This document shows positions 6,627 through 45,711 of a stretch of DNA of 45,711 bases, one piece after another. This stretch comes from Empedobacter falsenii (GTDB taxonomy: Bacteria; Bacteroidota; Bacteroidia; Flavobacteriales; Weeksellaceae): assembly GCF_019308355.1 (NCBI RefSeq), contig NZ_JAAGKM010000022.1, positions 1-45,711 of the forward strand. The letters are read 5' to 3'. The position numbers and the translations under genes are program-made. The notes under the pieces are model-generated. The model ran no database searches, had not been told where the DNA came from, and saw only the letters and a list, made by a program, of their open reading frames with translations. The first letter of the stretch is position 1; every line of letters starts with the position of its first letter.

Positions 6627-6924
6627 TTTGGCGTTTTTGGTTTAAAATTTGTTTAAATTTATGAAGTCTTTACGATTCAAAATCAAATTTAGTTGAAAAG
6701 ATTGCAAATCTTATCATTTCATCATATTTTCGTAAACAAATAGTTAAAAAGGTGTTAAAGTACGTTTTCACGTAATTACATATTAACTATTATTGTTTAT
6801 TTTTAATGAGTTAATATAAAGATCAATATCCGACAACAAAAATTTGTTATAAATATTTTCTATAACTATTATAAATAAAATCTTTTACAATTTCTCCAAA
6901 TAAGACATAAAAGTTAGACATTTG

Positions 6925-19593: not shown

Positions 19594-19601
19594 AAAATCT
19601 G

Positions 19602-19672
19602 TAGACCCACAGGGATTCGAACCCCAACTAGCGGCACCAAAAACCGATGTGCTACCGTTACACCATGGGTCT
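19602..19672 (-). tRNA. tRNA-Gln (UUG), third in transcription order
   Basis: 71 nt, cloverleaf with acceptor AGACCCA/TGGGTCT, TTCGAAT T-loop and anticodon loop TTTTGGT (anticodon TTG). The CCA tail is not encoded (discriminator A then CA). Sequence identical to the other two copies. Confidence 0.95.
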
Positions 19673-19711
19673 GTCCATGATTATTATGTTAAAATTGAAA
19701 AGAAAAAATTG

Positions 19712-19782
19712 TAGACCCACAGGGATTCGAACCCCAACTAGCGGCACCAAAAACCGATGTGCTACCGTTACACCATGGGTCT
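19712..19782 (-). tRNA. tRNA-Gln (UUG), second in transcription order
   Basis: 71 nt identical copy. It follows an internal hairpin with a T-run (19832-19864), so it may depend on readthrough or on its own promoter. Confidence 0.95.
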
Positions 19783-19831
19783 GACTAAATTTTATTTCAA
19801 TTTTTGCAACTTTTCTCTTAACTAGGTTAGA

Positions 19832-19864
19832 TAAAAATGCCTCAACAATTGCTTATCGAGGCAT
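19832..19864 (-). terminator. Intrinsic terminator-like hairpin inside the tRNA-Gln cluster
   Basis: On the minus strand ATGCCTC (19858-19864) pairs with GAGGCAT (19837-19843), followed by TTTTT. It lies between the first and second tRNA copies. Confidence 0.7.
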
Positions 19865-19874
19865 AAGACTTTTG

Positions 19875-19945
19875 TAGACCCACAGGGATTCGAACCCCAA
19901 CTAGCGGCACCAAAAACCGATGTGCTACCGTTACACCATGGGTCT
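19875..19945 (-). tRNA. tRNA-Gln (UUG), first in transcription order
   Basis: 71 nt identical copy, nearest to the promoter; transcription would begin about 10 nt before its 5' end. Confidence 0.95.
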
Positions 19946-21337: not shown

Positions 21338-21907
21338 TTATTCTTCAAAAATAATTGAGTTGTCTCCCAAAGATTTTAATCTTACTAAAGATTCAACTCT
21401 GATATTTTCATTCAATAAGCGATCGCGTCCTTCTTGAAATGATTTCTCAATTATAAAGCCCATTCCCAAAAGGTTTGCGCCAGATTGTTTAATCAAATTT
21501 TCAACACCCAACGCTGCATTTCCATTCGCTAAAAAATCATCAATAAAAATAACATGATCATTTTCATTCAAAAATTGACTACTTACGCAAACATCGTACG
21601 TTCGGTCTTTCGTGAATGAATACACTTGCGACGCATAAAAATCTGTCATTGTTTTAGGCTTTGCTTTCTTCACAAAAACAACAGGCAAATTCAATTCTAA
21701 TCCAACCATAATCGCTGGAGCAATGCCGCTTGCTTCGATTGTAATGATTTTATTAATGTTTAAATCCGAAAATCGCTGGACAAATTCCGACGCAATTGCT
21801 TTCATCAGAACAGGATCCATTTGGTGGTTGATAAAACTATCAACTTTTAGAATTCCACCATCGAAACTTTTTCCATCCTTCAGAATTCTTTCTTTTAAAA
21901 GTTCCAT
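21338..21907 (-). CDS. xpt: Xanthine phosphoribosyltransferase
   Basis: 189 residues, the size of Bacillus-type Xpt. It converts xanthine and PRPP to XMP in purine salvage. The PRPP-binding motif is [15 protein letters not shown] (around 118-132); [26 protein letters not shown] and [12 protein letters not shown] also match Xpt. It sits 74 nt downstream of guaA, which would turn its XMP product into GMP, but a terminator lies between the two. An AT-rich motif shared with the purH start region lies just before its ATG. Confidence 0.93.
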
Positions 21908-21980: not shown

Positions 21981-23513
21981 TTATTCCCACTCGATAGTTG
22001 CTGGTGGTTTTGAGCTGATATCGTAAGCTACACGGTTAATTCCTTTTACCTCATTGATAATTCTATTCGAAACTAATTCTAAGAATTCGTAAGGTAATTT
22101 TGACCACGTTGCTGTCATAAAATCGATCGTATTTGCAGAACGAACAACCGCCGTATATTCGTACGTACGCTCGTCTCCCATTACTCCAACAGATTTTACA
22201 GGTAATAAAACCACGAAAGCTTGAGAAACTTCGTCGTATAAATTATGTGCATAAAGCTCGTCAATAAAAATTTGATCTGCTTCTTGTAAAATACGTACTT
22301 TTTCTTCGTCTACTTCACCTAAAACACGGATTCCTAAACCTGGTCCTGGGAAAGGATGGCGGTAAACTAATTCACGAGGAATACCTAATTCTACTCCAAC
22401 TTTACGTACTTCATCTTTGAATAATTCGCGTAATGGTTCTAATAATTGAAGTTTCATATCTTCTGGTAATCCACCAACATTGTGGTGAGATTTAATAGTT
22501 GCAGAAGGTCCTTTTACCGATTGCGATTCGATTACATCAGGATAAATAGTTCCTTGTGCTAAGAATGCTGCATCTTCAAATTTATTTGATTCTTCATCAA
22601 AAACAGCCACGAAATCTTTACCAATTGATTTACGTTTTGCTTCTGGTTCATCGATACCTTTCAAGTTTGTTAAGAAACGTTCTGAAGCATCTACCATTTT
22701 AATGTTCATGTTGAAGTGTTTTCCGTAATTTTCCATTACTTTTTTTCCTTCATCTTTTCTCAATAAACCAGTATCAACAAAAATACACGTTAATTGATCG
22801 CCAATTGCACGATGAATTAAAACCGCTGCAACAGAAGAATCAACACCTCCTGAAAGTCCTAAAATCACTTTTTTATCACCAACTACTTCTTTTATACGAG
22901 CAATTTCTGTTTCGATAAAATCTTTTAAAACCCAATTCTTTTCAGCCTGACAAATATTGAAAACAAAGTTTTCTAACATTGTTGAACCATATTCTGAATG
23001 TGTAACTTCTGGGTGAAATTGTACCGCAAAAATCTTTTTATCTTCGTTTGCGATTGCCGCAATATCTATATTTGATTTTCCTGAAATTGTAAATCCTATT
23101 GGCGCTGTCATCACTTCATCGAAGTGACTCATCCAAACTGTAGATTGTTCTGGAACTCCTGCGAATAAACTGTTTTGAGCTAAAACTGTTAATTCAGATT
23201 TTCCATATTCTCCTTTTTCTCCTTTCTTAACTTCTCCACCTAATAAATGCGAAATCAATTGCATTCCGTAGCAAATTCCTAAAACAGGAACGCCCATTTC
23301 GAATAATTCTTTTTCTACCAAAGCGGCTTCATCTCCAAAAACTGAAGAAGGTCCTCCTGATAAAATAATTCCTTTTGGATTGTGTTTTTTGATTTCTTCG
23401 ATCGAAGTGTTGTAGGGAATAATTTCTGTATAAACTCCAAATTCTCGAATTCGGCGCGCGATTAATTGATTGTATTGCGAGCCAAAATCTAAAATAATAA
23501 TTCCTTGCGTCAT
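21981..23513 (-). CDS. guaA: GMP synthase (glutamine-hydrolysing)
   Basis: 510 residues. Converts XMP to GMP using glutamine and ATP. The class I amidotransferase domain has Cys81 (LGICYGMQ), His167 and Glu169 (VQFHPEVTHS). The synthetase part has the PP-loop SGGVDSS (221-227). The C-terminal dimerisation domain begins with FPGPGLGIRVLGE and ends SKPPATIEWE. It diverges from the glycerophosphodiesterase gene and has its own promoter and terminator. Confidence 0.97.
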   Translation of the reverse strand: MTQGIIILDFGSQYNQLIARRIREFGVYTEIIPYNTSIEEIKKHNPKGIILSGGPSSVFGDEAALVEKELFEMGVPVLGICYGMQLISHLLGGEVKKGEKGEYGKSELTVLAQNSLFAGVPEQSTVWMSHFDEVMTAPIGFTISGKSNIDIAAIANEDKKIFAVQFHPEVTHSEYGSTMLENFVFNICQAEKNWVLKDFIETEIARIKEVVGDKKVILGLSGGVDSSVAAVLIHRAIGDQLTCIFVDTGLLRKDEGKKVMENYGKHFNMNIKMVDASERFLTNLKGIDEPEAKRKSIGKDFVAVFDEESNKFEDAAFLAQGTIYPDVIESQSVKGPSATIKSHHNVGGLPEDMKLQLLEPLRELFKDEVRKVGVELGIPRELVYRHPFPGPGLGIRVLGEVDEEKVRILQEADQIFIDELYAHNLYDEVSQAFVVLLPVKSVGVMGDERTYEYTAVVRSANTIDFMTATWSKLPYEFLELVSNRIINEVKGINRVAYDISSKPPATIEWE

Positions 23514-30399: not shown

Positions 30400-31653
30400 T
30401 TATTGAATTACTCCAATATCATTTCGATAATATTCGTAATCAAAATGTGCTTTTTTGATGTTTTCGTAGGCAGTTACACGTGCTTCTTCTAATGTATTTC
30501 CTAATCCAACTATGTTAATTACGCGTCCACCAGAAGTAACAATTTGTTCACCTGATAATTTTGCACCAGCAATAAAATTAGGACAAGTTATATTTTCTAA
30601 ACCACGAATCTCAAAACCTTTGTCGTAATTTCCTGGATATCCTCCCGAAACCATCACCACACAACACGCATGTTGATTTTTGAAAGTCAAGTCAAAATCT
30701 TCTCCTTTGATTGCTTTATTTACAACCTCAGCCAAATCATTTTCTAACAAAGGTAAAGTTGTTTGCGTTTCTGGATCGCCCATTCTTAGGTTATATTCCA
30801 ACAAATAAACACCTTTTGTTGTAATCATCAATCCAAAGAAAATAACACCAGCAAACTCTAATCTTTCCTTAATTAAACCACATTTTGTTGGCTCCATAAT
30901 TTCTTCTTCGAACATTTTGAAATGCTCGTCTGTAAACAATGGATTTGGAGCGATAACGCCCATTCCACCAGTATTCAAACCAGTTTCACCTTCACCAATC
31001 TTCTTGTGATCTTTTGCCGAAACAAATGGAACGATTTTTTTCCCGTTAAAGAAAGACAAAATAGAAGCTTCAAAACCTTCTAAATATTCTTCGATAACCA
31101 CTTCGTTTCCTGCATCACCAAAGGTTTTATCTTCCATAATTTCTAAAACAGCTTGTTTAGCTTCTTCAAAATCTTGGCAGATAATCACTCCTTTTCCAGC
31201 CGCTAAACCAGAGGCTTTCACTACAATTGGATACTCTTGTGTTTTCAAATAATCAATCGCCAACATTGGTCCTTGAAAATTCTTATATTTTGCTGTTTTC
31301 ACACCGTATTTATCCATAAAATCCTTCGCAAAAGCTTTAGAAGCTTCCAATTGCGCAGCAGCTTTATGAGGTCCGAAAACAATTAAATTCTCTTTTTGAA
31401 AAATATCCACAATACCTTCTGCTAATTCAGCTTCTGGTCCTACAAAAGTTAAATCGATTTGATTTTCTTTCGCGAAATTTTTCATTTCTTCAATCGAAGA
31501 AGCCGAAACATTTGTTCCGATTTGAGCTGTTCCTGCATTTCCTGGAATAAAGAATAATTCTACTTCTTGACCTTTTTGTTTGAAGTCTTCAGCAAATTTC
31601 CATCCGATTGCGTGTTCACGACCACCTGAACCGATTACTAATATTTTTGTCAT
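30400..31653 (-). CDS. purD: Phosphoribosylamine-glycine ligase (GARS)
   Basis: 417 residues from the ATG at 31653 (MTKILVIGSGGREHAIGW); the frame is open further up to 31749 with no homology. PurD makes GAR from phosphoribosylamine, glycine and ATP. ATP-grasp features are visible: VVKASGLAAGKGVII, EEYLEGFEASILSF, GMGVIAPNP and EYNLRMGDPETQ. It follows purH by 120 nt on the same strand and is the last gene before the terminator at 30.36 kb. Confidence 0.95.
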   Translation of the reverse strand: MTKILVIGSGGREHAIGWKFAEDFKQKGQEVELFFIPGNAGTAQIGTNVSASSIEEMKNFAKENQIDLTFVGPEAELAEGIVDIFQKENLIVFGPHKAAAQLEASKAFAKDFMDKYGVKTAKYKNFQGPMLAIDYLKTQEYPIVVKASGLAAGKGVIICQDFEEAKQAVLEIMEDKTFGDAGNEVVIEEYLEGFEASILSFFNGKKIVPFVSAKDHKKIGEGETGLNTGGMGVIAPNPLFTDEHFKMFEEEIMEPTKCGLIKERLEFAGVIFFGLMITTKGVYLLEYNLRMGDPETQTTLPLLENDLAEVVNKAIKGEDFDLTFKNQHACCVVMVSGGYPGNYDKGFEIRGLENITCPNFIAGAKLSGEQIVTSGGRVINIVGLGNTLEEARVTAYENIKKAHFDYEYYRNDIGVIQ

Positions 31654-31773
31654 TTGTTTTAATCTTTTAATAAAAAATGAATAATGATAAACGAAAATTC
31701 TATTCTCGATACATTTTCTACGAAAACACTCGAATTGACGAATTTTCAAACTAGCATATTAACTAATTATTTA

Positions 31774-33285
31774 TTAGTGCATAAAATGTCTCATTCCTGT
31801 GAAAACCATCGGAATTTCGCGTTCATTACAAGCATCGATAGATTCTTGATCTTTGATTGATCCTCCTGGTTGAATAATTGCTTTAATTCCATTTTCTGCT
31901 GCAAAATCAGCTACATCACGGAAAGGGAAAAATGCATCTGAAGCTAAAACTAAATCTTCTTCCACTTTTTCTTTTGCACGTGCAATCGCTTGTTGAGCTG
32001 CCCAAATGCGGTTTGTTTGACCACCTCCAATTCCGTAAGCTTGACCATTTGTCGCTACAACAATCGCGTTAGATTTTACCCATTTTACAATTTTTTGAGC
32101 AAAAACTAAATCCATCATTTGACGATCAGTCGGTTGAGCTTCTGTTACAACTTTAAAATCTGTTGAAAACTGATTATCTGTAGACTGAACAATTAATCCT
32201 CCATCAACTTTTACATAAGTTACTTTATCCGAAACAGGATTCTTCACTTTGATGATTCGTAAATTTTTCTTTTGTTTAAAAATTTCAAACGCTTCTTCTG
32301 TAAATGAAGGCGCAATCACAATTTCTAAGAAAATTTTATTTAATTCAACTGCAGTTTTTCCATCAACTTCTCTATTGAAAGCGATGATTCCACCGAAAAT
32401 TGACATTGGATCACATTCATACGCTTTTTCATAAGCTTCTAAAACATTATCTCCAATCGCCACTCCACAAGGTGTTGAATGTTTCACTGCACAACAAGTT
32501 GTTTCCTCAAATTCTGAAACCACTTTATAAGCCAAATCCATATCACGAATATTATTGAAAGAAAGTTCTTTTCCTTGTAAATATTCGAAATCTTTCATTG
32601 CACCATTTTTTGTTTTATCAACATAATAAGCCGCTTTTTGATGTGGATTTTCTCCGTAACGTAAATCCATCACTTTCTCGTAAGAAGACTCTAAAAATTG
32701 AGGGAAATCTTCACCTAAAATGTAAGTAGAAATCGCCGCATCGTAAGCAGAAGTTAAGTTGAACACTTTACCAGCACATAATTTACGCGTTTCGATAGAA
32801 GTTGAACCATTCTCACGAATTTCATTCATTACTACTTCATAATCATTCACATCTGTCACAACTGTTACATCATAAAAATTCTTTGCAGAAGAACGTAACA
32901 TTGATGGTCCACCGATGTCAATAAATTCAATCATTTCAGCTTCAGAAAGACCTGTGTTCATCTTTTCGAAGAATGGATAAAGATTTACAATAACAATATC
33001 GATTGGGTTAATTCCGTGTTCTGCAATTGTTGCCATATGGTTTTCGTCCGAACGACGCGCCATAATACCACCATGAATTGCAGGATGTAAAGATTTTACG
33101 CGACCATCCAAAATCTCAGGAAAACCAGTTACATCTTTTACTTCTGTAACTTCGATTCCGTTGTCTTGTAAATGTTTGAATGTTCCTCCAGTTGATAAGA
33201 TTTTGTAGTCTTGTTCAACCAAGAATTTTGCAAATTCTAACAAGTTCGACTTGTCCGAAACACTGATTAGCGCTTGTTTTTGCAT
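31774..33285 (-). CDS. purH: Bifunctional AICAR transformylase/IMP cyclohydrolase
   Basis: 503 residues. Last two steps to IMP. The N-terminal MGS-like IMP cyclohydrolase domain (1-130: [39 protein letters not shown]) precedes the AICAR transformylase domain with [28 protein letters not shown] and [12 protein letters not shown]. The C-terminus ends in [15 protein letters not shown] terminator upstream separates it from purN. The AT-rich motif TAAACTTTAAAAACTAAA lies just before the start. Confidence 0.96.
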
Positions 33286-33374: not shown

Positions 33375-33935
33375 TTATGCTTCGCTGATTTGCTTGATTG
33401 CCTTGATGTAGATTTCACTTTCTACCTCAGCAACTTTACGCTGTAAATCTGCTACTTCATCACCTTCTTCGATCTCAAAAGTTCCTTGACAAATGATTTG
33501 CCCTTCATCTACACCAGCCGTCACAAAATGTACGGTTGCTCCTGATGTTTTTTCGCCAGCTTCTAAAACTGCTTTGTGAACTTTTGCGCCATACATTCCT
33601 TTTCCACCAAATTTTGGTAATAATGCAGGATGAATATTAATCATTTTCGAGCCCCATTTCGAGGTAAATTCTGGAGATAATATGGTTAAAAAACCTGCCA
33701 AAACAATTAAGTCGATTTCTTCTCCTTCTAAATTATGTTCAGCATCTTCCGAAAAAGTTTTTCGGTCTAAGACATACGTTCGGATATCTTTATCCAACGA
33801 TCGTTCTATTGCATAACAGTCTCGGTCTGCCATTACCATCGAAATCTCGACATTTGGTAACGTTCCGTCTTCAACTGCATCAATAATATTTTGAAGATTT
33901 GTTCCGCCACCGGAAACAAATACAGCTATTTTCAT
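33375..33935 (-). CDS. purN: Phosphoribosylglycinamide formyltransferase
   Basis: 186 residues. Transfers a formyl group from 10-formyl-THF to GAR. FVSGGGTNLQNIIDAV (7-22) binds the GAR phosphate. The catalytic Asn/His/Asp are in MINIHPALLP, SGATVHFV and VDEGQIIC. Expressed from its own -7 box and ended by a terminator before purH. Confidence 0.95.
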   Translation of the reverse strand: MKIAVFVSGGGTNLQNIIDAVEDGTLPNVEISMVMADRDCYAIERSLDKDIRTYVLDRKTFSEDAEHNLEGEEIDLIVLAGFLTILSPEFTSKWGSKMINIHPALLPKFGGKGMYGAKVHKAVLEAGEKTSGATVHFVTAGVDEGQIICQGTFEIEEGDEVADLQRKVAEVESEIYIKAIKQISEA

Positions 33936-34094: not shown

Positions 34095-34595
34095 TTAGTG
34101 CCCTTGAGTTCCGTCAACTCCATGTGCGTGTCCGTGAGATAATTCTTCCTCAGTTGCTGGACGAACATTAAGAATTTCAACTTCAAATTCTAATGTTTTT
34201 CCTGCCATTGGAGGATTCAAATCTGCAATTACAGCCTCTTCTGTCACTTCTACAACTGAAGCACGGAATTGATTTCCTGCATCATCAGTCAAAGGTAAAA
34301 TTGCTCCAACTGGTGGCAATCCAGATTCTTTGAACATATCTAAAGGTAATTGAGCAACAGCTTCTTCTACTCTTTCACCGTATCCTTCTGCTGGAGTAAT
34401 TACGAATGATTTTTTATCACCAATTGTTAATTCTTTTAATTCTTCTTCAAATTTTGGAATCATCATTCCAGCTCCAAATAAAAAAGTTAATGGCTCTTCT
34501 GCATTTGATTGTTCTACAAATACTTTTTCACCATTCGCTTCGATGGTATGTAATGAGTAGTTTACTGAAACTACATTATTGTTTTCTATTGACAT
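34095..34595 (-). CDS. SlyD-type FKBP peptidyl-prolyl isomerase
   Basis: 166 residues. FKBP domain with GAGMMIPKFEEEL and the insert-in-flap (IF) segment PAEGYGERVEEAVAQLPLDMF, then VILNVR-like close of the core. The tail is His-rich (LSHGHAHGVDGTQGH), as in SlyD proteins that bind metal. It speeds proline isomerisation and acts as a chaperone; the metal role is inferred from the tail. It lies between the purine block parts and is not itself a purine gene. Confidence 0.9.
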   Translation of the reverse strand: MSIENNNVVSVNYSLHTIEANGEKVFVEQSNAEEPLTFLFGAGMMIPKFEEELKELTIGDKKSFVITPAEGYGERVEEAVAQLPLDMFKESGLPPVGAILPLTDDAGNQFRASVVEVTEEAVIADLNPPMAGKTLEFEVEILNVRPATEEELSHGHAHGVDGTQGH

Positions 34596-34724
34596 AAATT
34601 GTAAATTATGGATGCTTTTAAAAAGCGTTCATTTTTAATACTTATCTTTTAACAACAACTATTCCTTTCGAATAATTTGACCAATTTTGTCAGTTATTTA
34701 GATTTTTGAACTGACAATTTTTAT

Positions 34725-36404
34725 TTAATCTATAAAAAGTAATGCTTTTTTGATGTCTTCATAACCAATTTCACCATTGAAATAATCATAAATTGGTTTT
34801 AAAACTTTATTCTCTTCAAATTCGATTTCACTATACGCTAATCGAACTTTATCAATAATTTTATCAGAAGGTTTAAATTTTGAATAATCCAAATCAGGCT
34901 CACTTTCTTTGATTTTACCAATATGATCGACAATTGCTGAAGTAGTTAAACCTCTTTTCTCTGCGATTTGATCTAAAGACAAACCTTCTTTCACATATTC
35001 TAATGTAATTTCGTAAGTCGATTTCTTTTGTCCTTTTTCTTTGGTTTTATTCTTTTCGATATTTTTTGCAATTTGTTTTTTATCCAAAGTTCCACCAGAA
35101 TATCGGATAAAAGCAGCCCAAGAGTTTTGCAATTCTTTTTCATCTAGAAACTCATCCATTTCATTCGATAAAACCTGAAAACGTCTATCAGCCTTCATTG
35201 CAAGTGAATCAATTTCTAAAGCCGTTTGATTAAGACCATGTAACATCAACGAATTTAAATCTCGTAAACGTGAAAGTGCAACATACCCTTGTCCTTTTTC
35301 GAACGCTTTTGATAAATCAATAAACGCAGAATCTAACGTCATTCCTTGTGATTTATGAATCGTAATCGCCCAAGCCAAACGCAACGGAACTTGTGTAAAT
35401 GAAGCCAATGCTTTTCCGCTTTCGTCCTCTATTGCCCACGTTTCTGGTTTTGCAATGTAAAATTCTCCATCTAATGTTTTGATAATTGGCTCGTCTTTTT
35501 CAGTATACCCCGAAACATTTCCAAGCGTTCCGTTTACAAAACCAACTTCGAAATTGTTACGAACAAACATCACTTTCGCTCCTATCTTCAATTCTAAAAC
35601 TTCTTCTGCTAAAACAGATTTTTTAAGAACCTCAACCAAAGCTGGATTTCCCGCAACTTTTGCTTCAAATGTTTTGGAAGATGAATCAATATTAATCAAT
35701 TGACCTTTATTAATTCGGTCCACATCCATATTATGTGTATACAAACGAGTTTGTGAATCTATTTCATCTGGAAAATATTCGATTCGAGTTTCTAATAAAT
35801 CAACTGTTTTTTGCGAAATATTCCCCGAACGAATTTCATTCAAAATATCATTCAATGCATTATTTGTTTGACGATATTGCTCTGTCAAATAACAAATATG
35901 CACTTTTGCTTGAACCCAAGCATCGGACATAAAACAGAATTTATCTTTCGATTCTTCCCACTCTTCACCAATCGGCGGTAACTGGAAAAAATCACCCGAA
36001 AAAATTACTTGAACACCTCCAAAAGGTTCATCGTTTTGTTTGAAAAACTTCAAAACATAATCAACCGCATCCAACTGATTTCGGTGCAGCATCGAGATTT
36101 CATCAATAATTAAGACTTTTACTTTGTCCATTTTATCTCGGAAATATTTCTTGTCGCGAAGCGAAGCCAAATATCGATCAGAAACATAATCTTTTATTCC
36201 AATTCCAGCCCAAGAATGTATCGTTTGACCATTCATGTGCGTCGCAGCAATTCCCGTAGAAGCCGTTATAGCAACAGGAACGCCATGTTGTTTAAGATAT
36301 TGAATGTATTGATTTAACACATAAGTTTTTCCGGCACCCGCAGAACCTGTTAAAAATACATTTCGACCAGATTTTAGAATTGCCAAAGCCTTTGATTGTT
36401 GCAT
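34725..36404 (-). CDS. Pif1-like helicase with C-terminal HTH
   Basis: 559 residues. Walker A is GSAGAGKT (20-27), then TASTGIAATHMNGQTIHSW, Walker B IIDEISML and the FSGDFFQLPP motif typical of Pif1/RecD-like helicases; the late GYVALSRLRD is motif VI-like. The C-terminal region (about 460-500, TYEITLEYVKEGLSLDQIAEKRG) is a helix-turn-helix-like segment. Probably a 5'-3' DNA helicase; its specific job is unknown. It has its own -7 box upstream. Confidence 0.88.
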   Translation of the reverse strand: MQQSKALAILKSGRNVFLTGSAGAGKTYVLNQYIQYLKQHGVPVAITASTGIAATHMNGQTIHSWAGIGIKDYVSDRYLASLRDKKYFRDKMDKVKVLIIDEISMLHRNQLDAVDYVLKFFKQNDEPFGGVQVIFSGDFFQLPPIGEEWEESKDKFCFMSDAWVQAKVHICYLTEQYRQTNNALNDILNEIRSGNISQKTVDLLETRIEYFPDEIDSQTRLYTHNMDVDRINKGQLINIDSSSKTFEAKVAGNPALVEVLKKSVLAEEVLELKIGAKVMFVRNNFEVGFVNGTLGNVSGYTEKDEPIIKTLDGEFYIAKPETWAIEDESGKALASFTQVPLRLAWAITIHKSQGMTLDSAFIDLSKAFEKGQGYVALSRLRDLNSLMLHGLNQTALEIDSLAMKADRRFQVLSNEMDEFLDEKELQNSWAAFIRYSGGTLDKKQIAKNIEKNKTKEKGQKKSTYEITLEYVKEGLSLDQIAEKRGLTTSAIVDHIGKIKESEPDLDYSKFKPSDKIIDKVRLAYSEIEFEENKVLKPIYDYFNGEIGYEDIKKALLFID

Positions 36405-36664: not shown

Positions 36665-37657
36665 CTATTTCAATATAATTTTGTCAGCACCTTCTTGAAT
36701 TTCTCCAATCAACGCACTTCCATCAATAATATTCAATACTTTTTCAGCATCAGTTTGGTCAACGATGACAACCATTCCAATACCCATATTAAATGTTCCA
36801 AACATTTCGTTTTCTGCAATTCCTCCGCGTTTAGCTAATTCTTGCATCACTGTTGGTACATTTATTTTTGCTTTTTCTATTACAGCAGTTAATCCGTCAT
36901 TTATAATACGAGGAACATTCTCGATTAATCCACCTCCTGTAATATGAGCAATTCCAGACATTTCGATTCCAGCATCTTTGATTTTGAAAATATCATTTTG
37001 ATATAATTTTGTTGGAACTAATAATGTTTCGAACAAAGGTTTACCTTCAAATTCTTCGTTAAAATCTGGGAAAACTTTACGAACCAAAGAGAATCCATTC
37101 GAATGGAAACCACTTGATGGTAACGCAATAATTACTTGTCCAGCTTTTATTTTAGAACCATCGATAATTTCATCTCGTTCTACTACTCCAACACAAAATC
37201 CAGCAACATCATAATCACCAACTTGGTACATTCCTGGCATTTCTGCTGTTTCTCCACCAATTAATGCTGTTCCAGTTTCTTTACACGCTTGTGCAATTCC
37301 ACCTACAATTTCTGCTGCGATATCAGAATCTAATTTTCCACAAGCTAAATAATCTAAGAAAAATAATGGTTTTGCTCCATGACACAAAATATCATTTGCA
37401 CACATCGCGAAACAATCAATCCCAACTGTATCGTAAACTTTAGAATCTAAAGCCACACGTAGTTTAGTTCCTACACCATCGGTTCCTGATACCAAAACAG
37501 GATTTTTGTAACCTCCTAATTGGTAAAATGCACCAAAACTTCCAATTCCATTCAACACGTTTGAATTGTGTGTTGCTGCAACTGCATCTTTAATTTTCGA
37601 TACCGTTTGATAACCTTCTTCCTTATCTACTCCGGCTTGTTTATATGTATTGCTCAT
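36665..37657 (-). CDS. purM: Phosphoribosylformylglycinamidine cyclo-ligase (AIR synthase)
   Basis: 330 residues. Makes AIR from FGAM and ATP. GVDKEEGYQTVSKIKDAV at the start, SGTDGVGTKLRVAL, DYLACGKLD, GGETAEMPGMY and HITGGGLIENVPRI are the expected PurM motifs. It follows purF by 53 nt on the same strand and is the last gene of the purC-purF-purM group before a terminator. Confidence 0.95.
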   Translation of the reverse strand: MSNTYKQAGVDKEEGYQTVSKIKDAVAATHNSNVLNGIGSFGAFYQLGGYKNPVLVSGTDGVGTKLRVALDSKVYDTVGIDCFAMCANDILCHGAKPLFFLDYLACGKLDSDIAAEIVGGIAQACKETGTALIGGETAEMPGMYQVGDYDVAGFCVGVVERDEIIDGSKIKAGQVIIALPSSGFHSNGFSLVRKVFPDFNEEFEGKPLFETLLVPTKLYQNDIFKIKDAGIEMSGIAHITGGGLIENVPRIINDGLTAVIEKAKINVPTVMQELAKRGGIAENEMFGTFNMGIGMVVIVDQTDAEKVLNIIDGSALIGEIQEGADKIILK

Positions 37658-37710: not shown

Positions 37711-39216
37711 TTAATCTATATGCAAAGGTTTCACCTCTTTACATTCTTCATTAGAATAATTTACGGGATATTTTTCTGTAAAACATCCAAAACAATGTTC
37801 TTTACTTCCTAATAAATCAATCAGATTATCAACTGTTAAGAAATCTAACGAATCGACATTCAAATAATCTTCAACCTCTTTAATTGATTTATTTCCTGAA
37901 ATTAAATCTGCTTTAGAAGGCATATCAATTCCTAAATAACAAGGCGCAATAATTGGAGGCGAAGCAGAACGGAAATGGATTTCTTTTGCTCCTGCTTCTT
38001 TTAAGATTTTGATTAAAAGTTTCGAAGTTGTTCCACGTACAATCGAATCATCTAAAACAACCAAACGTTTTCCTTTGATTTTATTTTTGATGGGATTCAA
38101 TTTTAAGTTGACCACACGTTCACGCATTTCTTGTGAAGGAACGATAAACGAACGCGACATATAACGATTCTTAATCAAAATTGGTTCGTAAGGAATACCC
38201 GAAGCTTCTGAATAACCAATTGCAGACGGGATCCCAGAATCTGGAACACCAATTACAATATCGGCAGCAACAGGAGATTGTTCGTATAATTTTCGACCAG
38301 ATTCTACACGTAAATCGTAGATTTCATTTCCTTCGATATTCGAGTCAGGACGTGCAAAATAAATGTACTCAAAAGCACAAATATTACGCTGCGTTGGTTG
38401 ATTTAATGAATAAGATTTCAAACCTTGTTCATTTACAACAATCAATTCACCTGGCTCTACATCACGGATAAATTCAGCTCCGACAGCGTCTAATGCACAT
38501 GTTTCTGAACAGAAAACATAGGCATCGTCCAATTTTCCTAAACATAAAGGACGAATACCATTTGGATCGCGAAAAGCTGCCATTTGATTATTCGCTAATA
38601 ACAAAACCGAATAAGCTCCTTTTACCTTTTCTGTACCTTTCTGTATAGCTTCTACAATATCTAAATGCGAATATTTTTGAATAGAACGTAATAAAACCTC
38701 CGTATCCGAAGTTGCTAAAAATGGTAAACCTTCTGCTTCTAATTCAGCTCTCAATGCTTCAACTTCAATTAAATTTCCGTTATGAGCAATAGAGAAATGA
38801 GGTTTTCCATAAATATTGTACGTGTAAAGTGGCTGAATGTTACGACGACTTCCACCTCCAGCAGTTGTGTAGCGTGTATGTCCAATCGCAGCATTTCCTT
38901 GGTATTCTTCAATCTCGGCTTCCATTGTTTTGAAAACGTCTAATACCAATCCTGTTTTTTTCACCGTTTTAATGTTTCCATCTTTCAAGAAAGAAACACC
39001 ACACGCTTCCTGTCCACGGTGTTGAAGCGCAAATAAACCAAACTGTGCAATAGAATATGTGTTGATATTATTTGGCGAATAAACCCCAAAAACACCACAT
39101 TCTTCGTTTACACTATCCACAGTATCGGCTGCATATTTTTTTAATAAATTTCTTTCGTAGAAATTCGTTAAATATTCAGCTTTTAATTGGCTTTTATGTA
39201 ATTTTTTATCAATCAT
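37711..39216 (-). CDS. purF: Amidophosphoribosyltransferase
   Basis: 501 residues. Makes phosphoribosylamine from PRPP and glutamine, the first step of the pathway. The nucleophile is Cys40 (NEECGVFG), so the encoded protein has a 39-residue N-terminal extension that must be removed to expose it; there is no later Met before Cys40. The PRTase domain has VVLDDSIVRGTT. Four cysteines for a [4Fe-4S] cluster of the Bacillus type are seen: in RNICAFEYIYFARP, APCYLGIDMPS and EHCFGCFTEKYP. It starts 19 nt after purC, so it is cotranscribed. Confidence 0.95.
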   Translation of the reverse strand: MIDKKLHKSQLKAEYLTNFYERNLLKKYAADTVDSVNEECGVFGVYSPNNINTYSIAQFGLFALQHRGQEACGVSFLKDGNIKTVKKTGLVLDVFKTMEAEIEEYQGNAAIGHTRYTTAGGGSRRNIQPLYTYNIYGKPHFSIAHNGNLIEVEALRAELEAEGLPFLATSDTEVLLRSIQKYSHLDIVEAIQKGTEKVKGAYSVLLLANNQMAAFRDPNGIRPLCLGKLDDAYVFCSETCALDAVGAEFIRDVEPGELIVVNEQGLKSYSLNQPTQRNICAFEYIYFARPDSNIEGNEIYDLRVESGRKLYEQSPVAADIVIGVPDSGIPSAIGYSEASGIPYEPILIKNRYMSRSFIVPSQEMRERVVNLKLNPIKNKIKGKRLVVLDDSIVRGTTSKLLIKILKEAGAKEIHFRSASPPIIAPCYLGIDMPSKADLISGNKSIKEVEDYLNVDSLDFLTVDNLIDLLGSKEHCFGCFTEKYPVNYSNEECKEVKPLHID

Positions 39217-39235: not shown

Positions 39236-39958
39236 TTATTTTAAAACTTCTGTCAAACGATTATATACTTCGTGATAAGCTTCTGAAACATCACCTAAAT
39301 CACGACGAAAACGGTCTTTATCTAATTTTTTTCCTGTTTCAACATCCCATAAACGACATGTATCTGGAGAAATTTCGTCAGCTAAAATGATATTACCATC
39401 AACATCTTTACCAAATTCAATTTTAAAATCAGCTAAAATTAATCCAGCTTTTAAGAACAATTCTTTCAACGCTTCGTTAATTACTTCTGTTTGTGTGTAC
39501 ATTTCATCTAACTCATCATATGTTGCAGCTCCTAATAAAACCGCATGATGATCGTTGATTAATGGATCTCCTAATTCATCTTTTTTATAACAGATATCAA
39601 AAATTGTAACTGGAGATTTCGCTCCTTCTTCTAATCCTAAACGTTGAGCCATAGACCCAGCTACATAGTTGCGCACAACCATTTCAATTGGAATAATTGA
39701 TACTTTTTTCACCAATTGCTCACGATCATTCAACTGCTCGATGAAATGAGTTTTAACTCCTTTTTCAATCAAATAGTTGAAAATTAAAGTCGAAATTTTG
39801 TTGTTCATTTCTCCTTTGTCCTCAACAGTTCCACGCTTTTGTGCATTAAATGCAGTCGCGTCATCTTTGTAATACACAATTACTTTGTCTGCCTCCTCTG
39901 TTGAGTAAACTTGTTTTGCTTTCCCTTCGTAAATGAAGTCTTTTTTTGTTAAGCTCAT
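39236..39958 (-). CDS. purC: SAICAR synthetase
   Basis: 240 residues from the ATG at 39958 ([18 protein letters not shown]), the Bacillus-type short form. The open frame extends to 40000 but adds nothing conserved. Joins CAIR and aspartate with [35 protein letters not shown] and [15 protein letters not shown] are conserved. First gene of the purC-purF-purM group; a 546-nt intergenic region separates it from purL upstream. Confidence 0.95.
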
Positions 39959-39997
39959 CGTTGTTGTTTGTTTTTTCGAAGCTCGATTTTCGAAATT

Positions 39998-40005
39998 CAA
40001 AGTTA
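39998..40005 (-). promoter_or_regulatory. Possible -7 box of purC
   Basis: TAACTTTG on the minus strand, 39 nt before the ATG. No clear -33 box, so purC-purF-purM may instead continue from purL, which has no visible terminator. Confidence 0.35.
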
Positions 40006-40504: not shown

Positions 40505-43500
40505 CTACCCTCTAAAATACTCCACCGCATTTTTGAAGATATTCATATATCCATTTCCTGGAATGTTCTTGAATAATCCTTCTTCGTAACGCTCTGGATG
40601 TCCCATTCGCCCGTAAACTTTTCCACAAGGCGATACAATTCCTTCTACCGCAAACGTAGATCCATTTGGATTATAAGGCATTTTTCCAGCTAATTTTCCA
40701 TCCAAATCTACAAACTGAGTTGCGATTTGTCCTTTATCAATTAACTTTTCTAATTCAACCTCATTTGCTACGAAACGACCTTCTCCATGCGAAAATGGAA
40801 TCCAGAATTCTTGACCTTCCATTCCTTTTAACCAAGGTGAGTGCGATTTATTCACTCTCACTTTCGCTAATTGTGTAATGTGACGACCAATTTCATTGAA
40901 CGTTAATGTTGGTGTATCTTCTTCTAAATCTTGAATACGTCCATAAGGCAATAATCCTGATTTAATCAACGCTTGAAAACCATTACAGATTCCTAAAACC
41001 AAACCATCGCGCTCTAATAAATTGTGAATTGCATTTTTGATTTTCTCATTGCGTAAAACCGTTGCAATAAATTTACCTGATCCATCTGGCTCATCAGCAG
41101 CTGAAAAACCTCCTGGTACAAAGAAAATATTGGCTTGATTGATTTCATTTACAAAAGCATCAACTGATTCTTCAACATCTTGTTGTGTTAAATTACGGAA
41201 AGGCAAAGTCGAAACGATTGCTCCTTCTCTACGGAACGCTTTTGCTGAATCATATTCTGAATTTGTTCCTGGGAAAATTGGAATGAAAACTTTTGGGTTT
41301 TCTACTTTATGATCGGCGAAGGCAAAACAAATTTGTTCTGCTTTTAAATCTTTTTCCTCAACAACAGTTTCAGTAGTTGATTTATATGGAAACAATGAAT
41401 TGAATGTTTCTTTCCATTGTTGTTTTAATTCAATCAAATTAATTTCTTCTCCATTAAAGTTGAACGAAGTTGAATCATTTGTCTGACCTAAAACATGATA
41501 ATTTTGAGCGATTTCAGCAGGAATATTTAAATCATCTGAATGTTCAATTACAATCGAAGCTGGATAATATTTTGCTACATCTAAATCAGTTTTGATTTCA
41601 AATCCGATTTCATTACCAAAAGCCATATTCGCTACAGTTTCTGCAATTCCACCAAATTTAACCGTCATCATTGATTTTACATCAGCATTAATTGTTCCGA
41701 TAAAATCAAAAATAGCTTTTGTATTTGCTTCGTCGATTAAATAATCTTCTGTTAATGTTGGAATAAAAACTGAAAGTTTAGAATTCTTTTCAACTAAAGT
41801 TCCTTGTACAATTTTTTCAGCCAAAGAAGGCGCAACTGCAAAAGAAATCAACGTTGGCGGAACATCAATATCTTGGTAAGAACCAGACATCGAATCTTTA
41901 CCTCCAATTGCAGGAATTCCGAACTGTTTTTGTGCTTCAATCGTTCCTAATAAAGCCGCAAATGGTTTTCCCCAACGCGTAGCCTCATCACGTAATTTTT
42001 CAAAATATTCTTGAAAAGTTAAACGAATATCAGCATAATTTCCACCAGCAGCAACAATTTTTGTCATCGAATCAATTACCGCAAAATAAGCTCCGTGATA
42101 ATTTGACCAACGCGAAATTGTAGGATTGTAACCAAATGAAGCAATTGAAACCGCATTTGTAAATCCGTCAGCCGGGAATTTTTGTACCGAAATATCTTCT
42201 GGTGTATCCATTGTTTGTCCACCAAAAGCATTCAAAATAGTAGAACGTCCAACGTTATTGTCAAACATTTCTACCATACCTTTTTGCGACGCATGATTTA
42301 ACTCTTGCATCATTGCAATAAACGCTTCTTTATTGAAGGCTTTATTCTCAAAAGGATTTGTATATTCTTCGTCCGTAACTTCGATTTTAGCTTGTTTACG
42401 AACGCCATTTGTATCTAAAAATTTACGGTCTAATTCAACAATCTTTGTTCCTTTCCAAACCAAAGTCATTGTATCATCTCCCGTTACCTCTGCAACACAA
42501 GTCGCATCAAGATTTTCTTCTTTTGCTAATGAGATAAATGTTTCCACATCTTTAGCCTCAACCGCAACAGCCATACGTTCCTGAGATTCAGAAATCGCTA
42601 ATTCTGTTCCGTTTAATCCAGCATATTTCAATGGAACTAAATCTAAATTAACATTAATTCCGCGTGCAATTTCACCAATTGCAACAGAAACACCTCCTGC
42701 TCCAAAGTCATTACATTTTTTGATTAATGCTAAAACGTCTGGATTACGGAATAAACGTTGAATTTTACGTTCAACAATTGCATTTCCTTTTTGAACTTCT
42801 GCTGATAAATCGTCTAATTTAAGACCATCGTGTGTTTTAGATGAACCAGAAGCTCCTCCTACTCCATCACGACCTGTTGCTCCACCTAATAAAATAATTT
42901 GGTCACCTGCAACTGGTTCTTCACGGCGAACATATTCTTTTTTTACAGCTCCAGCCACAAAACCAACTTCCATGCGTTTTGCTTTGTACCCTTCGTCATA
43001 AATTTCTTTCACAAAAGTTGTCGCTAAACCAATTTGATTTCCGTACGAACTGTATCCATTTGCTGCTTCTTTCGAGATTTTACGTTGTGGTAATTTACCT
43101 GGTAACGTTTCTTCAATTTTCTCTAAAGGATTTGCAGCTCCTGTAATACGCATCGCTTGGAAAACATAAGAACGTCCACTCAAAGGGTCGCGAATTGCTC
43201 CACCAACACATGTCGAAGCTCCACCAAATGGTTCCACTTCTGTTGGGTGATTATGTGTTTCGTTTTTGAATTGTAATAACCATTCTTCTTCAACACCATC
43301 TACATCGATTGGAACGACAATAGAACATGCATTGATTTCTTCTGAAACATCAATATTTTTTACAACTCCTGTACGAGAAAGATATTTCCCCATCACAGTT
43401 GCTAAATCCATCAAACGAATTGGTTTTGTAGTTCCTAATTCTTGACGAACTTGTTGGTAATAATCGAATGTTTTTTGAAGTGTTTCGTTAAATTTAGAAT

Positions 43501-44212
43501 TAAATTGAACATCTGTAATCTCCGTCTCAAAAGTTGTATGACGACAGTGATCAGACCAATAAGTATCTAAAACTTTTAACTCAGTTTCGGTTGGATTACG
43601 ATTGATTGATTTGAAATAGTCTTGAATAAAAACTAAATCATCCATTTCTAACGATAATCCAAATTGGTTGTAAATGTCTTGTAGTTTATTTTCGTCAGCA
43701 GAAATAAAACCTTCAATAATTGGAACTTCAGTAGCTTCTGGATTTGCTGGAATTTCCATTTTCGAAAGATCTTTCTCGCGCGACTCAATTGGATTGATTA
43801 AGTAATCTTTTACTTTCTTTAAATCTTCCGCAGACAAATCATCATTGAAAACATATAATAAACCAGATTTTACGGTTACATTTTCAACATTCATCAACAC
43901 TAAACATTGTTCCGAAGAATCATCGCGTTGATTGTATTGACCAGGTAAAAATTCGGTTGCAAAATAGTTTTTCGTATAAGGAATGCTTTCGTTAACTGCG
44001 TCTTCTACGTATTTGAAAACAACGTCTGTCACAGGATCGACAAACACCTTATTTTGAACCTCTTGTAATTGGCTTTCTTCTATATTAAATAGATCATAAA
44101 TAACAAAAACCTTGCACACAATTGTAGGTACAAGGTTTTTGAGTTCTATTGTAGTCTTCTGACTGATAACGTCAAAATTCGATTTCTTCTGAATGAAAAG
44201 TCTTTGGTTCAT
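40505..44212 (-). CDS. purL: Phosphoribosylformylglycinamidine synthase (large single-chain form)
   Basis: 1235 residues, the large form that fuses synthetase and amidotransferase, so separate PurS and PurQ are not needed. It converts FGAR to FGAM with glutamine and ATP. YWSDHCRHTTFETEI, FKNETHNHPTEVEPFGGAST, IRDPLSGRSYVFQAMR and GGATGRDGVGGASGSS mark the synthetase part. The C-terminal amidotransferase has Cys1076 (LGICNGFQ), His1205 and Glu1207 (GRMGHPERY). Its ATG overlaps the TGA of an upstream 36-codon ORF, and a guanine riboswitch lies in the leader. Strong promoter at 44.45 kb. Confidence 0.97.
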   Translation of the reverse strand: MNQRLFIQKKSNFDVISQKTTIELKNLVPTIVCKVFVIYDLFNIEESQLQEVQNKVFVDPVTDVVFKYVEDAVNESIPYTKNYFATEFLPGQYNQRDDSSEQCLVLMNVENVTVKSGLLYVFNDDLSAEDLKKVKDYLINPIESREKDLSKMEIPANPEATEVPIIEGFISADENKLQDIYNQFGLSLEMDDLVFIQDYFKSINRNPTETELKVLDTYWSDHCRHTTFETEITDVQFNSKFNETLQKTFDYYQQVRQELGTTKPIRLMDLATVMGKYLSRTGVVKNIDVSEEINACSIVVPIDVDGVEEEWLLQFKNETHNHPTEVEPFGGASTCVGGAIRDPLSGRSYVFQAMRITGAANPLEKIEETLPGKLPQRKISKEAANGYSSYGNQIGLATTFVKEIYDEGYKAKRMEVGFVAGAVKKEYVRREEPVAGDQIILLGGATGRDGVGGASGSSKTHDGLKLDDLSAEVQKGNAIVERKIQRLFRNPDVLALIKKCNDFGAGGVSVAIGEIARGINVNLDLVPLKYAGLNGTELAISESQERMAVAVEAKDVETFISLAKEENLDATCVAEVTGDDTMTLVWKGTKIVELDRKFLDTNGVRKQAKIEVTDEEYTNPFENKAFNKEAFIAMMQELNHASQKGMVEMFDNNVGRSTILNAFGGQTMDTPEDISVQKFPADGFTNAVSIASFGYNPTISRWSNYHGAYFAVIDSMTKIVAAGGNYADIRLTFQEYFEKLRDEATRWGKPFAALLGTIEAQKQFGIPAIGGKDSMSGSYQDIDVPPTLISFAVAPSLAEKIVQGTLVEKNSKLSVFIPTLTEDYLIDEANTKAIFDFIGTINADVKSMMTVKFGGIAETVANMAFGNEIGFEIKTDLDVAKYYPASIVIEHSDDLNIPAEIAQNYHVLGQTNDSTSFNFNGEEINLIELKQQWKETFNSLFPYKSTTETVVEEKDLKAEQICFAFADHKVENPKVFIPIFPGTNSEYDSAKAFRREGAIVSTLPFRNLTQQDVEESVDAFVNEINQANIFFVPGGFSAADEPDGSGKFIATVLRNEKIKNAIHNLLERDGLVLGICNGFQALIKSGLLPYGRIQDLEEDTPTLTFNEIGRHITQLAKVRVNKSHSPWLKGMEGQEFWIPFSHGEGRFVANEVELEKLIDKGQIATQFVDLDGKLAGKMPYNPNGSTFAVEGIVSPCGKVYGRMGHPERYEEGLFKNIPGNGYMNIFKNAVEYFRG

Positions 44213-44319
44213 TGTATTGTTTGCTGTACTATTTGGTTTAATGTGTTTAAACCATTTGTATCATCTACATCTACATCAACAAACAAACTATTTTCTAACG
44301 AGAGTGGTTCAAGACTCAT
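44209..44319 (-). CDS. 36-codon upstream ORF coupled to purL
   Basis: ATG at 44319 to TGA at 44211-44209; the TGA shares bases with the purL ATG (ATGA). The peptide begins MSLEPLSLENSLF, contains VDVDVDD and ends QIVQQTIQ. It has no signal peptide. Codons are normal for this genome. It lies between the riboswitch and purL, so it may be a leader peptide that sets purL translation by coupling. It contains a hairpin TGGTTTAA/TTAAACCA (44234-44254). Whether it is translated cannot be seen from sequence. Confidence 0.55.
   Translation of the reverse strand: MSLEPLSLENSLFVDVDVDDTNGLNTLNQIVQQTIQ
44234..44254 (-). promoter_or_regulatory. Hairpin before the purL start
   Basis: An 8-bp perfect stem TGGTTTAA and TTAAACCA with loop ACACA, inside the uORF and 22 nt before purL. 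No T-run follows, so it is not a terminator by itself; it may fold in the alternative leader structure. Confidence 0.5.
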
Positions 44320-44336
44320 TTTGTAGAAAAAAAATT

Positions 44337-44404
44337 CATTTGTAGTGGCAATTTTTTATGGTCTGCCGTAGAGACGCTCAACCTTATTATGAGCTATACA
44401 AATG
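44337..44404 (-). promoter_or_regulatory. Guanine-class purine riboswitch aptamer in the purL leader
   Basis: Read on the minus strand from 44404. P1 is CATTTGTA with TACAAATG. P2 is GCTCA with TGAGC. L2 is AATAAGG and L3 has ACCATAAA, keeping the GG and CC that pair loop to loop. P3 is GGCAG with TTGCC. J2/3 is GTCTCTAC, near the consensus GUUUCUAC. J3/1 is ACTA with C at the position of xpt C74, which predicts guanine or hypoxanthine rather than adenine. J1/2 appears one base shorter than usual, and P2 and P3 are short. A run of eight T follows P1 by two bases. Confidence 0.88.
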
Positions 44405-44445
44405 TTGTAAACTTTAAAAACTAAATCACCTTTAAAAGTGAACTG

Positions 44446-44477
44446 CAAAATTAAACATTTTAATTAGTAAAATCAAA
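44446..44477 (-). promoter_or_regulatory. Promoter of the purL leader
   Basis: TTTG (44474-44477), 20-nt spacer, TAATTTTG (44446-44453) on the minus strand. Transcription would start near 44440, about 36 nt before the aptamer and about 228 nt before purL. Confidence 0.85.
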
Positions 44478-44570
44478 TCTAAATCAACAATATTTTATTT
44501 AATTTTTTGGTTAAATATTTTTCTTAAAATTTAAGCATGATTATCAATCAAATGTCCCATTTTACAACAA

Positions 44571-44604
44571 AAAAAATCCTTATCAAAATTGATAAGGATT
44601 TTTC
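44571..44604 (-). terminator. Terminator of the small hypothetical gene
   Basis: Stem AATCCTTATCA (44575-44585) with TGATAAGGATT (44590-44600), followed by a T-run on the minus strand. Confidence 0.85.
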
Positions 44605-44615
44605 GTTTTCCGTAA

Positions 44616-44861
44616 TTATCTTGTAATTGTCAAATCGTATTCGTTATCTGATTCATCATATTTATATGATAATTTCATATTAAAATCTTGCATAAACTTT
44701 TTACAAAATGTTTCTATATTTAATGAATCTGGAAAAGTAGCTTTGTTAACTGTCATAAACAAAGTTGTCCAAATTGTATTGTCTTTAAAAATTGTAGAGA
44801 ATCTTTTCTCCCAATATGTTAAAAACTTTTCTTCTTTTTCATTGATTAATATCTCTTCCAT
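44616..44861 (-). CDS. Hypothetical protein, 81 residues
   Basis: Start ATG at 44861 (MEEILINEKEEKFLTYW). The open frame extends to a TTG at 44888, but that lies inside the -7 box (44886-44893), so it cannot be transcribed as a start. No signal peptide, no known motif; it has a Trp/Phe-rich helical middle (WEKRFSTIFKDNTIWTTLFM) and an acidic C-terminal part (ESDNEYDLTITR). Own promoter and terminator, so a real single gene. Confidence 0.65.
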   Translation of the reverse strand: MEEILINEKEEKFLTYWEKRFSTIFKDNTIWTTLFMTVNKATFPDSLNIETFCKKFMQDFNMKLSYKYDESDNEYDLTITR

Positions 44862-45053: not shown

Positions 45054-45590
45054 ATGTTTACAAATAATTTAAAAGGACGTTACAGTATTTTACTATTTTT
45101 CAGTTCGTTATTTATTCTAATTTCATTTATTTTACGCCTAATTTTTGCGGTTTGGGTAAAAGGTGATTTCGATTGGAATATTGGCTCGTTATTGCACACT
45201 ATTTTTTATGGATTAGTGTACGATATTAGCGTTGTAAGCTGTTTCACGTTATTCTTGTCATTTTATTTTATGATTTTACCCAACAAATTCGTCAATTCAT
45301 TATTTGATCGAATTTTCGTGTATTTCGTTTATACATTGTATTTGGTAATCATTTATTTCACATTTTTTGCCGAAATTACATTTTGGGACGAATTCAAAAG
45401 TCGATTCAATTTTATTGCGGTCGATTATTTAATTTATACGTACGAAGTTGTTAAAAATATTCAAGAATCATATCCATTACCTGTTTTAATTAGCGGAATT
45501 GTTTTAATTACAGGCTTGACAATTTTCGCAACAAAAAAAGGTTACTTCTTTTACAACACATTCCATAACAAACCAAAAACAAGCTGGATA
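45054..45590 (+). pseudogene. 5' part of an LTA-synthase-like sulfatase gene, cut by an IS
   Basis: About 175 residues of membrane protein with five likely transmembrane segments. FWDEFKSRFNFIAVDYLIY and NIQESYPLP match the membrane half of Bacteroidota LTA-synthase-family (alkaline phosphatase superfamily) proteins, which normally exceed 600 residues. The catalytic extracellular part is missing. The frame runs into the IS end and stops at TAA 45594-45596. The gene is therefore disrupted unless the rest continues beyond the window. Its normal product would be an envelope phosphotransferase. Confidence 0.75.
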
Positions 45591-45711
45591 TCCTAACGAA
45601 AGTTCCAGAGTAAGAAAAGGTATATAATACTTATCTTACAATTATGAAAGGAATAAAAAATCATTACGATGCTTCATTTAAATTACGAGCGGTAGAATTG
45701 AGTTATGAAAG
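45585..45711 (+). mobile_element. Left end of an IS3-family insertion sequence (partial)
   Basis: From about 45585 (TGGATATCC) the membrane-protein frame ends and a transposase start appears 59 nt later. The exact boundary and inverted repeat cannot be fixed without the other end. The element continues past the window. Confidence 0.65.
45644..45711 (+). CDS. IS3-family transposase OrfA, N-terminal part
   Basis: 22 codons visible (MKGIKNHYDASFKLRAVEL...). NHYDASFKLRAVELSYE is typical of the helix-turn-helix start of IS3-type OrfA (InsE/transposase_8 family). Cut off by the window end. Confidence 0.75.
   Translation, partial: MKGIKNHYDASFKLRAVELSYE

Follow-up and report, generated by a model that had tools for sequence, protein, structure and literature searches.

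A guanine-type purine aptamer before purL in Empedobacter, with putative lineage-specific expression platforms in the Weeksellaceae

In Bacillus subtilis, guanine-I riboswitches precede, for example, xpt and the pur operon. The known purine riboswitch structure shows base 48 flipped out, and the 2′-dG-II riboswitches, which accompany DNA-related genes, have an altered J2/3 with C at position 51. In the parts of the texts available, U22, U51 and C74 are the guanine-contacting positions (PMC9295807), and purine riboswitches are assigned to Firmicutes and to one or two lineages of Proteobacteria (PMC3766115), found in only few groups (PMC2258182) and reported once from metagenomes, the gene being unknown (PMC2211319). 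For the Bacteroidota, the literature gives, in the text seen, only 2′-dG-II elements of this scaffold. Across the literature searched, mainly outside subscription papers and partly in excerpt, no description was found of a guanine-type purine riboswitch in this phylum or of a riboswitch in Empedobacter, and none of the matches listed joined a purine riboswitch with Flavobacteri-.

Here we describe an element in a 45,711-nucleotide stretch of Empedobacter falsenii DNA (hereafter the window), which the original prediction had read as a guanine-type purine riboswitch in a purL leader of the Bacteroidota. Our analysis supports that reading, and, as judged from sequence and covariation, we regard the element as a genuine guanine-type purine riboswitch. 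It would represent direct sensing of guanine by RNA in front of de novo purine synthesis genes of Bacteroidota.

The aptamer and its setting

On the minus strand, positions 44421-44323 match Rfam family RF00167 (Purine) in cmscan with 52.1 bits against a gathering threshold of 37 (E = 4.2e-6 for the entire window against 4227 families), a covariance score on which the original prediction had staked itself beforehand. Rescanning 401 bases around the element gave E = 3.7e-08 for RF00167, with none of the other 10 matches listed near its own cut-off, and the window's own genome holds a single copy. Rfam thus already recognises the element, and what is unusual is the host branch, the kind of aptamer being known; since the Rfam model itself finds it, genome annotations may already carry the riboswitch.

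The aptamer proper occupies 44337-44404 of the minus strand, a strand that had not been given before, and the RF00167 alignment together with pair counts places every part of the proposed purine plan there. P1 is formed by CAUUUGUA (44397-44404) and UACAAAUG (44337-44344). P2 joins GCUCAU (44389-44394) to UUGAGC (44376-44381), which read from the sequence as five pairs closed by a U-U opposition, GCUCA(U)/(U)UGAGC, around an L2 of AAUAAGG. P3 and L3 (44347-44367; GGCAG/UUGCC) are irregular, with the P3 strands at 44362-44367 and 44347-44351, and L3 supplies the CC (44360-44361) of the GG/CC loop pair with L2, so that the RF00167 pseudoknot is present. J2/3 (44368-44375) reads GUCUCUAC and shares seven of eight letters with the RF00167 core GUUUCUAC, the substitution being C48 at 44373; U51 lies at 44370, and C74, the expected partner base of the purine ligand, follows A73 at 44345 (positions numbered as in xpt). 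The departures from the usual form that had been named at the outset, namely C48, a J1/2 one base shorter, a short P2 and an irregular P3/L3, are likewise present as described.

Upstream, a pattern match on the minus strand gives a promoter-like TTTG-N20-TAATTTTG at 44446-44477, of the TTTG/TAnnTTTG type that we take to be the Bacteroidota promoter consensus. The two-part pattern occurs 10 times in the window against 5.3 expected, with as many in 5 of 100 shuffles. Of the 33 family aptamers, 32 have a TAnnTTTG box no more than 110 nt upstream of P1 (4.8 expected from shuffles), the sole exception being L013, and 14 have the full TTTG-N17-23-TAnnTTTG. A promoter had been placed about 36 nt before the aptamer; a promoter-like box is indeed there, at a distance to P1 of 41 nt. 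Between box and aptamer (44405-44442, minus strand) lie a short 5′ hairpin, UCAC...GUGA, and, directly before P1, a UUUACAA that can pair with the 5′ P1 strand, both kept in the genus Empedobacter.

Downstream, the minus strand carries purL (40505-44212), whose product scores 1671.6 bits with the FGAM synthase model TIGR01857 (cut-off 1057.05), followed by purC (39236-40000), purF (37711-39216) and purM (36665-37657). Two further genes at 34095-36404, for a RecD2-like helicase (below the NCBIfam cut-off) and an FKBP-like protein (label by eye), precede purN (33375-33935), purH (31774-33285) and purD (30400-31749), with which the same-strand run ends at 30400; the pur genes after purL were assigned by family search. 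From this gene order, the aptamer-headed run is a putative single transcript. Farther along the minus strand lie guaA (21981-23513) and xpt (21338-21907), which are not counted in the run because plus-strand genes intervene. A 36-codon frame in the window's leader that overlaps the purL start by ATGA was considered and rejected; by eye, it is broken in L009 and L013.

Elsewhere in the window, three tRNA-Gln(TTG) genes stand in a row on the minus strand (19601-19945), identical over 71 matched bases. On the plus strand, at 45054-45711, a frame that starts like a longer membrane protein of relatives stops after 180 codons; the related frame has 289 codons and is still open in L011, and is a 679-codon sulfatase in L147. 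After it, near the contig end, comes the apparent start of a transposase frame (22 codons, no family match), possibly of an insertion sequence.

Conservation of the fold and distribution of the element

Conserved pairing in related purL leaders was the other computable check on the original prediction. The pair test used 23 distinct aptamers of the 33 in the family (Weeksellaceae), ten near-copies having been dropped (7 Empedobacter, 2 Vaginella and 1 adenine-type). Pairing was kept in 91.3% of 506 pair cells, two-sided changes fell at 11 of 22 pairs (37 such cells) and the covariation score was 0.263; none of 500 shuffles reached any of these values, and slid-partner controls were paired in only 32-53%. 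A fifth measure, further pair types, did not rise above shuffles (376 of 500 as high). Two-sided changes affect all six pairs of P2, four of six in P3 and one pair of P1. Both loop-loop pairs are invariant in 23/23 aptamers and, since they never vary, are conserved yet carry no covariation evidence. The aptamer rows are akin, but the pair changes are spread across five genera, and RNAalifold recovers the same three stems from the aptamer alignment.

RF00167 matches above cut-off precede purL in 14 of 14 genomes of the window's genus, in which the closest named PurL relative is that of Empedobacter tilapiae (98%); as rows within one genus are kin, neither this 14 of 14 nor the 20 of 20 given below for a U-run counts as so many independent events. 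The element also precedes purL in three further Weeksellaceae genera. Over the family, RF00167 was found above cut-off in 30 of 320 genomes and 5 of 33 genera, which, with denominators taken from the rows listed, comprise g1 (Empedobacter, 14/14), g10 (5/5), g52 (Vaginella, 3/3), g17 (6/9) and g12 (2/3). Ten genomes with no RF00167 match held no clear remnant (four matches at E 3.3 to 8.8), and a plasmid search with the leader gave no match. Larger scans, run under stricter filters that lose weak matches and on overlapping samples, found RF00167 in 5 of 395 genomes of an even phylum sample (that of the window and four from family f38) and in 1 of 295 of a class sample (the window's own), and a model built from the family aptamers found 3 of 395 in an order sample (the window's own and two of g17).

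Each of the three Vaginella genomes carries two aptamer copies. In Vaginella massiliensis (L148), purine aptamers at 6487-6559 and 6704-6776 of the minus strand stand in tandem before purL, 217 nt apart, each with its own promoter-like box. The upstream copy in the other two (L146:3959-4033 and L147:3443-3517, plus strand) is an orphan with no same-strand gene of its own, parted from the purL-proximal aptamer by opposite-strand genes that include a histidine kinase and a sulfatase; these orphans keep their promoter-like boxes and a U-run.

PurL proteins of family genomes outside the genus are 47-70% identical to the window's. Among 23 genomes of the order outside the family, identity reaches 63% and 52% in two and stays at about 26-35% in the others, save one that gave no match. 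A PurL tree (quick method, midpoint root) was made from 67 of 110 extracted rows, leaving out 6 near-identical Empedobacter rows and 37 further loci, mostly Bacillota; it unites the family rows, the two order exceptions and one Bacteroidia MAG in a single group that stands beside Fusobacteria, Brachyspira and Clostridia. Mapped onto this tree, the riboswitch label (27 rows labelled) takes at least two changes, with gain and loss indistinguishable. Searched with the family model, 77 purL loci from outside the family yielded 11 aptamers in 9 loci. The best four of these (67-71 bits) come from Psychrilyobacter, a Fusobacteriaceae MAG, a Clostridium MAG and Fusobacterium, and their gaps to purL are about 110 nt, 2 kb, 100 nt and 560 nt, respectively. 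On this comparison, purL and riboswitch may have been transferred together.

Ligand class

U22, U51 and C74 are all kept in the window aptamer, as in the guanine-I class, and guanine or hypoxanthine is therefore the expected ligand; on these bases we infer one of the two as likeliest. Guanine feedback also fits the pur genes downstream. Position 74 is C in 31 of 33 family aptamers and U in the other two. C48 (that is, GUCUCUAC) is found in 14 of 14 genus aptamers and 0 of 19 others in the family, and GUCUCUAC recurs in the aptamers of Psychrilyobacter and Fusobacterium. A J1/2 one base shorter is shared by 13 of 14 genus aptamers (not L004) and the purL-proximal Vaginella aptamers of L146 and L147. 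U48C, like the short J1/2 and the irregular P3/L3, is a trait of the lineage; these traits are partly common to Fusobacteria and are not evidence of a new class. C74 at 44345 does not fit an adenine riboswitch, which would have U74, and the retained U51 and the purine-synthesis genes downstream do not fit 2′-dG-II.

Could U48C and the short J1/2 nonetheless signal another purine, such as 2′-deoxyguanosine, 8-oxoguanine or xanthine? Variant classes on the purine scaffold do exist, as the part of the source available describes (PMC9295807), and the J2/3 of the genus differs at one place. With U22, U51 and C74 all kept, U48C recurring in Psychrilyobacter and Fusobacterium aptamers some 110 nt and 560 nt ahead of purL, respectively, and genes for de novo purine synthesis, not purine oxidation or DNA breakdown, downstream, we consider this quite improbable. 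Small AU-rich models, the purine model included, are described in the excerpt seen as yielding spurious matches (PMC2258182), and 28 of 33 family genera have no RF00167 match, which speak for a chance match or a dead remnant; set against the position before purL throughout the genus, the covariation, the invariant core and the loop pair, that explanation deserves practically no credence, and guanine or hypoxanthine stands as the likeliest ligand.

The two U74 aptamers of the family are of adenine type and belong to two g12 genomes (L151:5393-5465, minus strand; L152:6090-6162, plus strand). L151 shows GAUUAU vs GACUAC in the region of position 74 and precedes an EamA-family transporter gene, making the g12 aptamer a possible adenine riboswitch in Bacteroidota.

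Proposed expression platforms and comparison with known systems

Our reading, which we hold to be likely, is that a guanine-I-like riboswitch heads the run purL-C-F-M-(two genes)-N-H-D and would lower its expression when guanine or hypoxanthine is plentiful; both the ligand and the OFF direction are read from the locus, the latter as probably turning purine synthesis down. The ligand would lock P1. Two nucleotides after P1, the window has a run of eight U (44327-44334, minus strand), brought out by family comparison and proposed as a terminator tail or pause site. All 20 aptamers of Empedobacter and Vaginella have a U-run of 6-9 whose start lies between -2 and +3 nt relative to the P1 end, as against 0 of 13 in other family genera. 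As the U-run follows P1 at once, a locked P1 in these two genera would serve as a terminator or pause, or contribute to one. When ligand is absent, P1 is predicted to be marginal: among ligand-free folds of 12 genus leaders, from promoter to U-run, it is in the best fold of eight, with an advantage of 0.1-4.2 kcal/mol over the best alternative that leaves the P1 3′ strand free, small margins of the kind a switch needs, and in L004, L012, L014 and L015 another fold beats it. The stem is AU-rich, with two G-C pairs, which is poor for an intrinsic terminator, and, as it is missing from the best ligand-free fold in 4 of 12 leaders, termination at P1 would hang wholly on ligand energy. A terminator scan of 44200-44620 gave no site between aptamer and purL, both of its sites lying at 44571-44604, upstream of the promoter, and no classical intrinsic terminator (G+C-rich hairpin with U-run) was found in the leader. 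Given this and the two G-C pairs, termination at P1 is put forward as a hypothesis; the folding evidence is mixed, and what we favour, as the position of the U-run suggests, is that ligand-locked P1 promotes termination or pausing there.

The leaders of g10 and g17 point to another arrangement. The phylum's mRNAs are described, in the parts of the sources seen, as having no Shine-Dalgarno sequences and as tuning initiation by mRNA structure (PMC6847099; PMC9976891). In these two genera, an anti-P1 strand lying up to about 50 nt downstream can pair with the P1 3′ strand. In 9 of 11 leaders, no more than 5 of 500 shuffles pair as well (L021, 23 of 500; L022, 79 of 500); anti-P1 follows the changes of P1 in L019, L021 and L026, and L018 retains the pairing with one mismatch and one G-U. 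Adjoining anti-P1, or inside it, is a strand complementary to the purL start. The masking pair in g10 is UUUCGUUUnCUUCAU against AUGAAUAAACGAA (L018 and L023, with close forms in L002 and L024 and a weaker one in L027), and in g17 CUUUUGU against ACAAAAG (L003, L019, L021 and L025, partly L026 and not L022); as these pairs differ by genus along with the purL codons, the strand follows the codons in most leaders. For the masking duplex, 2 of 5 g10 and 4 of 6 g17 leaders have at most 20 of 400 shuffles as stable. Locking the aptamer lowers the predicted accessibility of the start in 5 of 5 g10 leaders (mean -0.16; as low in 1-12 of 100 shuffles); of the six g17 leaders, it does so in L021 and L025 (0 of 100 shuffles), the other four being near zero. 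A freed P1 3′ strand would thus pair with anti-P1, part of which would otherwise mask the purL start codon, and the predicted folds suggest a translational OFF switch in g10 and g17.

Might the platform of Empedobacter be purely translational as well, the P1 3′ strand and a strand just before the purL start, CAGCAAACAA (44217-44226, minus strand), competing for GUUUGUUUGUUG (44277-44288, minus strand), with the U-run pausing or neutral? The strand exchange at the start codon in g10 and g17 speaks for it, as does a duplex search in which GUUUGUUUGUUG/CAGCAAACAA, as possible sequestering and sequestered strands, is the top-ranking duplex of 10 genus leaders out of 14, the remaining four (L005, L008, L012 and L014) having a GUUUGUU strand that pairs over the start codon region; L004 adds one compensatory change, read from the alignment. 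Measured against shuffles, this duplex is weak, reaching 20 of 400 or fewer in 5 of 14 genus leaders (window, 26 of 400), and an anti-P1 strand in Empedobacter does not exceed shuffles, 0 of 14 leaders falling at or below 5 of 500 (lowest L009 at 22 and L004 at 34; window, 146 of 500). P1 locking shifts predicted start accessibility by +0.01 in the window's leader and by -0.05 on average in the genus (4 of 14 below -0.05; L005 +0.11), the Vaginella mean being +0.06, and RNAalifold on 16 downstream leaders found no common structure. A purely translational platform also leaves the U-run in 20 of 20 unexplained, and we rate it as a serious contender that falls behind termination or pausing at the U-run; a weaker form of the start masking in g10 and g17 may act in Empedobacter as a back-up to the latter. 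A downstream copy of ATACAAATG that could pair with the 5′ P1 strand was rejected as a candidate, being present in the window and absent from L005, L008, L012 and L014. That guanine should instead turn the genes ON has a precedent in the guanine-II ON switches predicted in Paenibacillus, as the available part of the source has it (PMC9295807), but the genes here are biosynthetic and, in g10 and some of g17, predictions have the ligand-locked fold masking the start, which makes an ON switch very improbable.

One aptamer may serve in Empedobacter and Vaginella as its own terminator, guanine-locked P1 ending transcription at the U-run with no further platform, and in other genera of the family as a start-masking switch fitted to ribosomes that disregard Shine-Dalgarno sites, the platform having been swapped, perhaps after arrival with a purL of clostridial or fusobacterial type; we offer this history tentatively and think it somewhat doubtful. 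Lineage-specific expression platforms would be the unusual part of the find, and the related genera provide a natural comparison in which one aptamer is perhaps wired either to transcription or to Shine-Dalgarno-free translation.

Among known systems, the 2′-dG-II riboswitches of Bacteroidetes share scaffold and phylum with the window element, as far as the text available shows (PMC8872408). Five elements in four f38 genomes (L111-L115) are likely members of that class and differ from the window element in a J2/3 ending in CCACC; they precede genes read by eye as endonuclease I, and 2′-dG-II riboswitches with such features are described in Bacteroidetes in the part of that source seen (PMC8872408). 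The Psychrilyobacter locus (L036; aptamer 2721-2793, purL from 2903) resembles that of the window in its aptamer, U48C included, and in a PurL of 51-52% identity, and, unlike it, has before purL, as read by eye, a separate hairpin that is G+C-rich and carries a U-run, together with a GGAGGAG site. Compared with RF00167 guanine-I riboswitches, the window element is distinguished by U48C, a J1/2 one base shorter, a short P2, an irregular P3/L3, a Bacteroidota host and promoter type, and a U-run directly after P1, with no separate terminator hairpin found in its leader; it shares with them the three-stem junction, the GG/CC L2-L3 pairs, the J2/3 core, C74 and the association with de novo purine genes.
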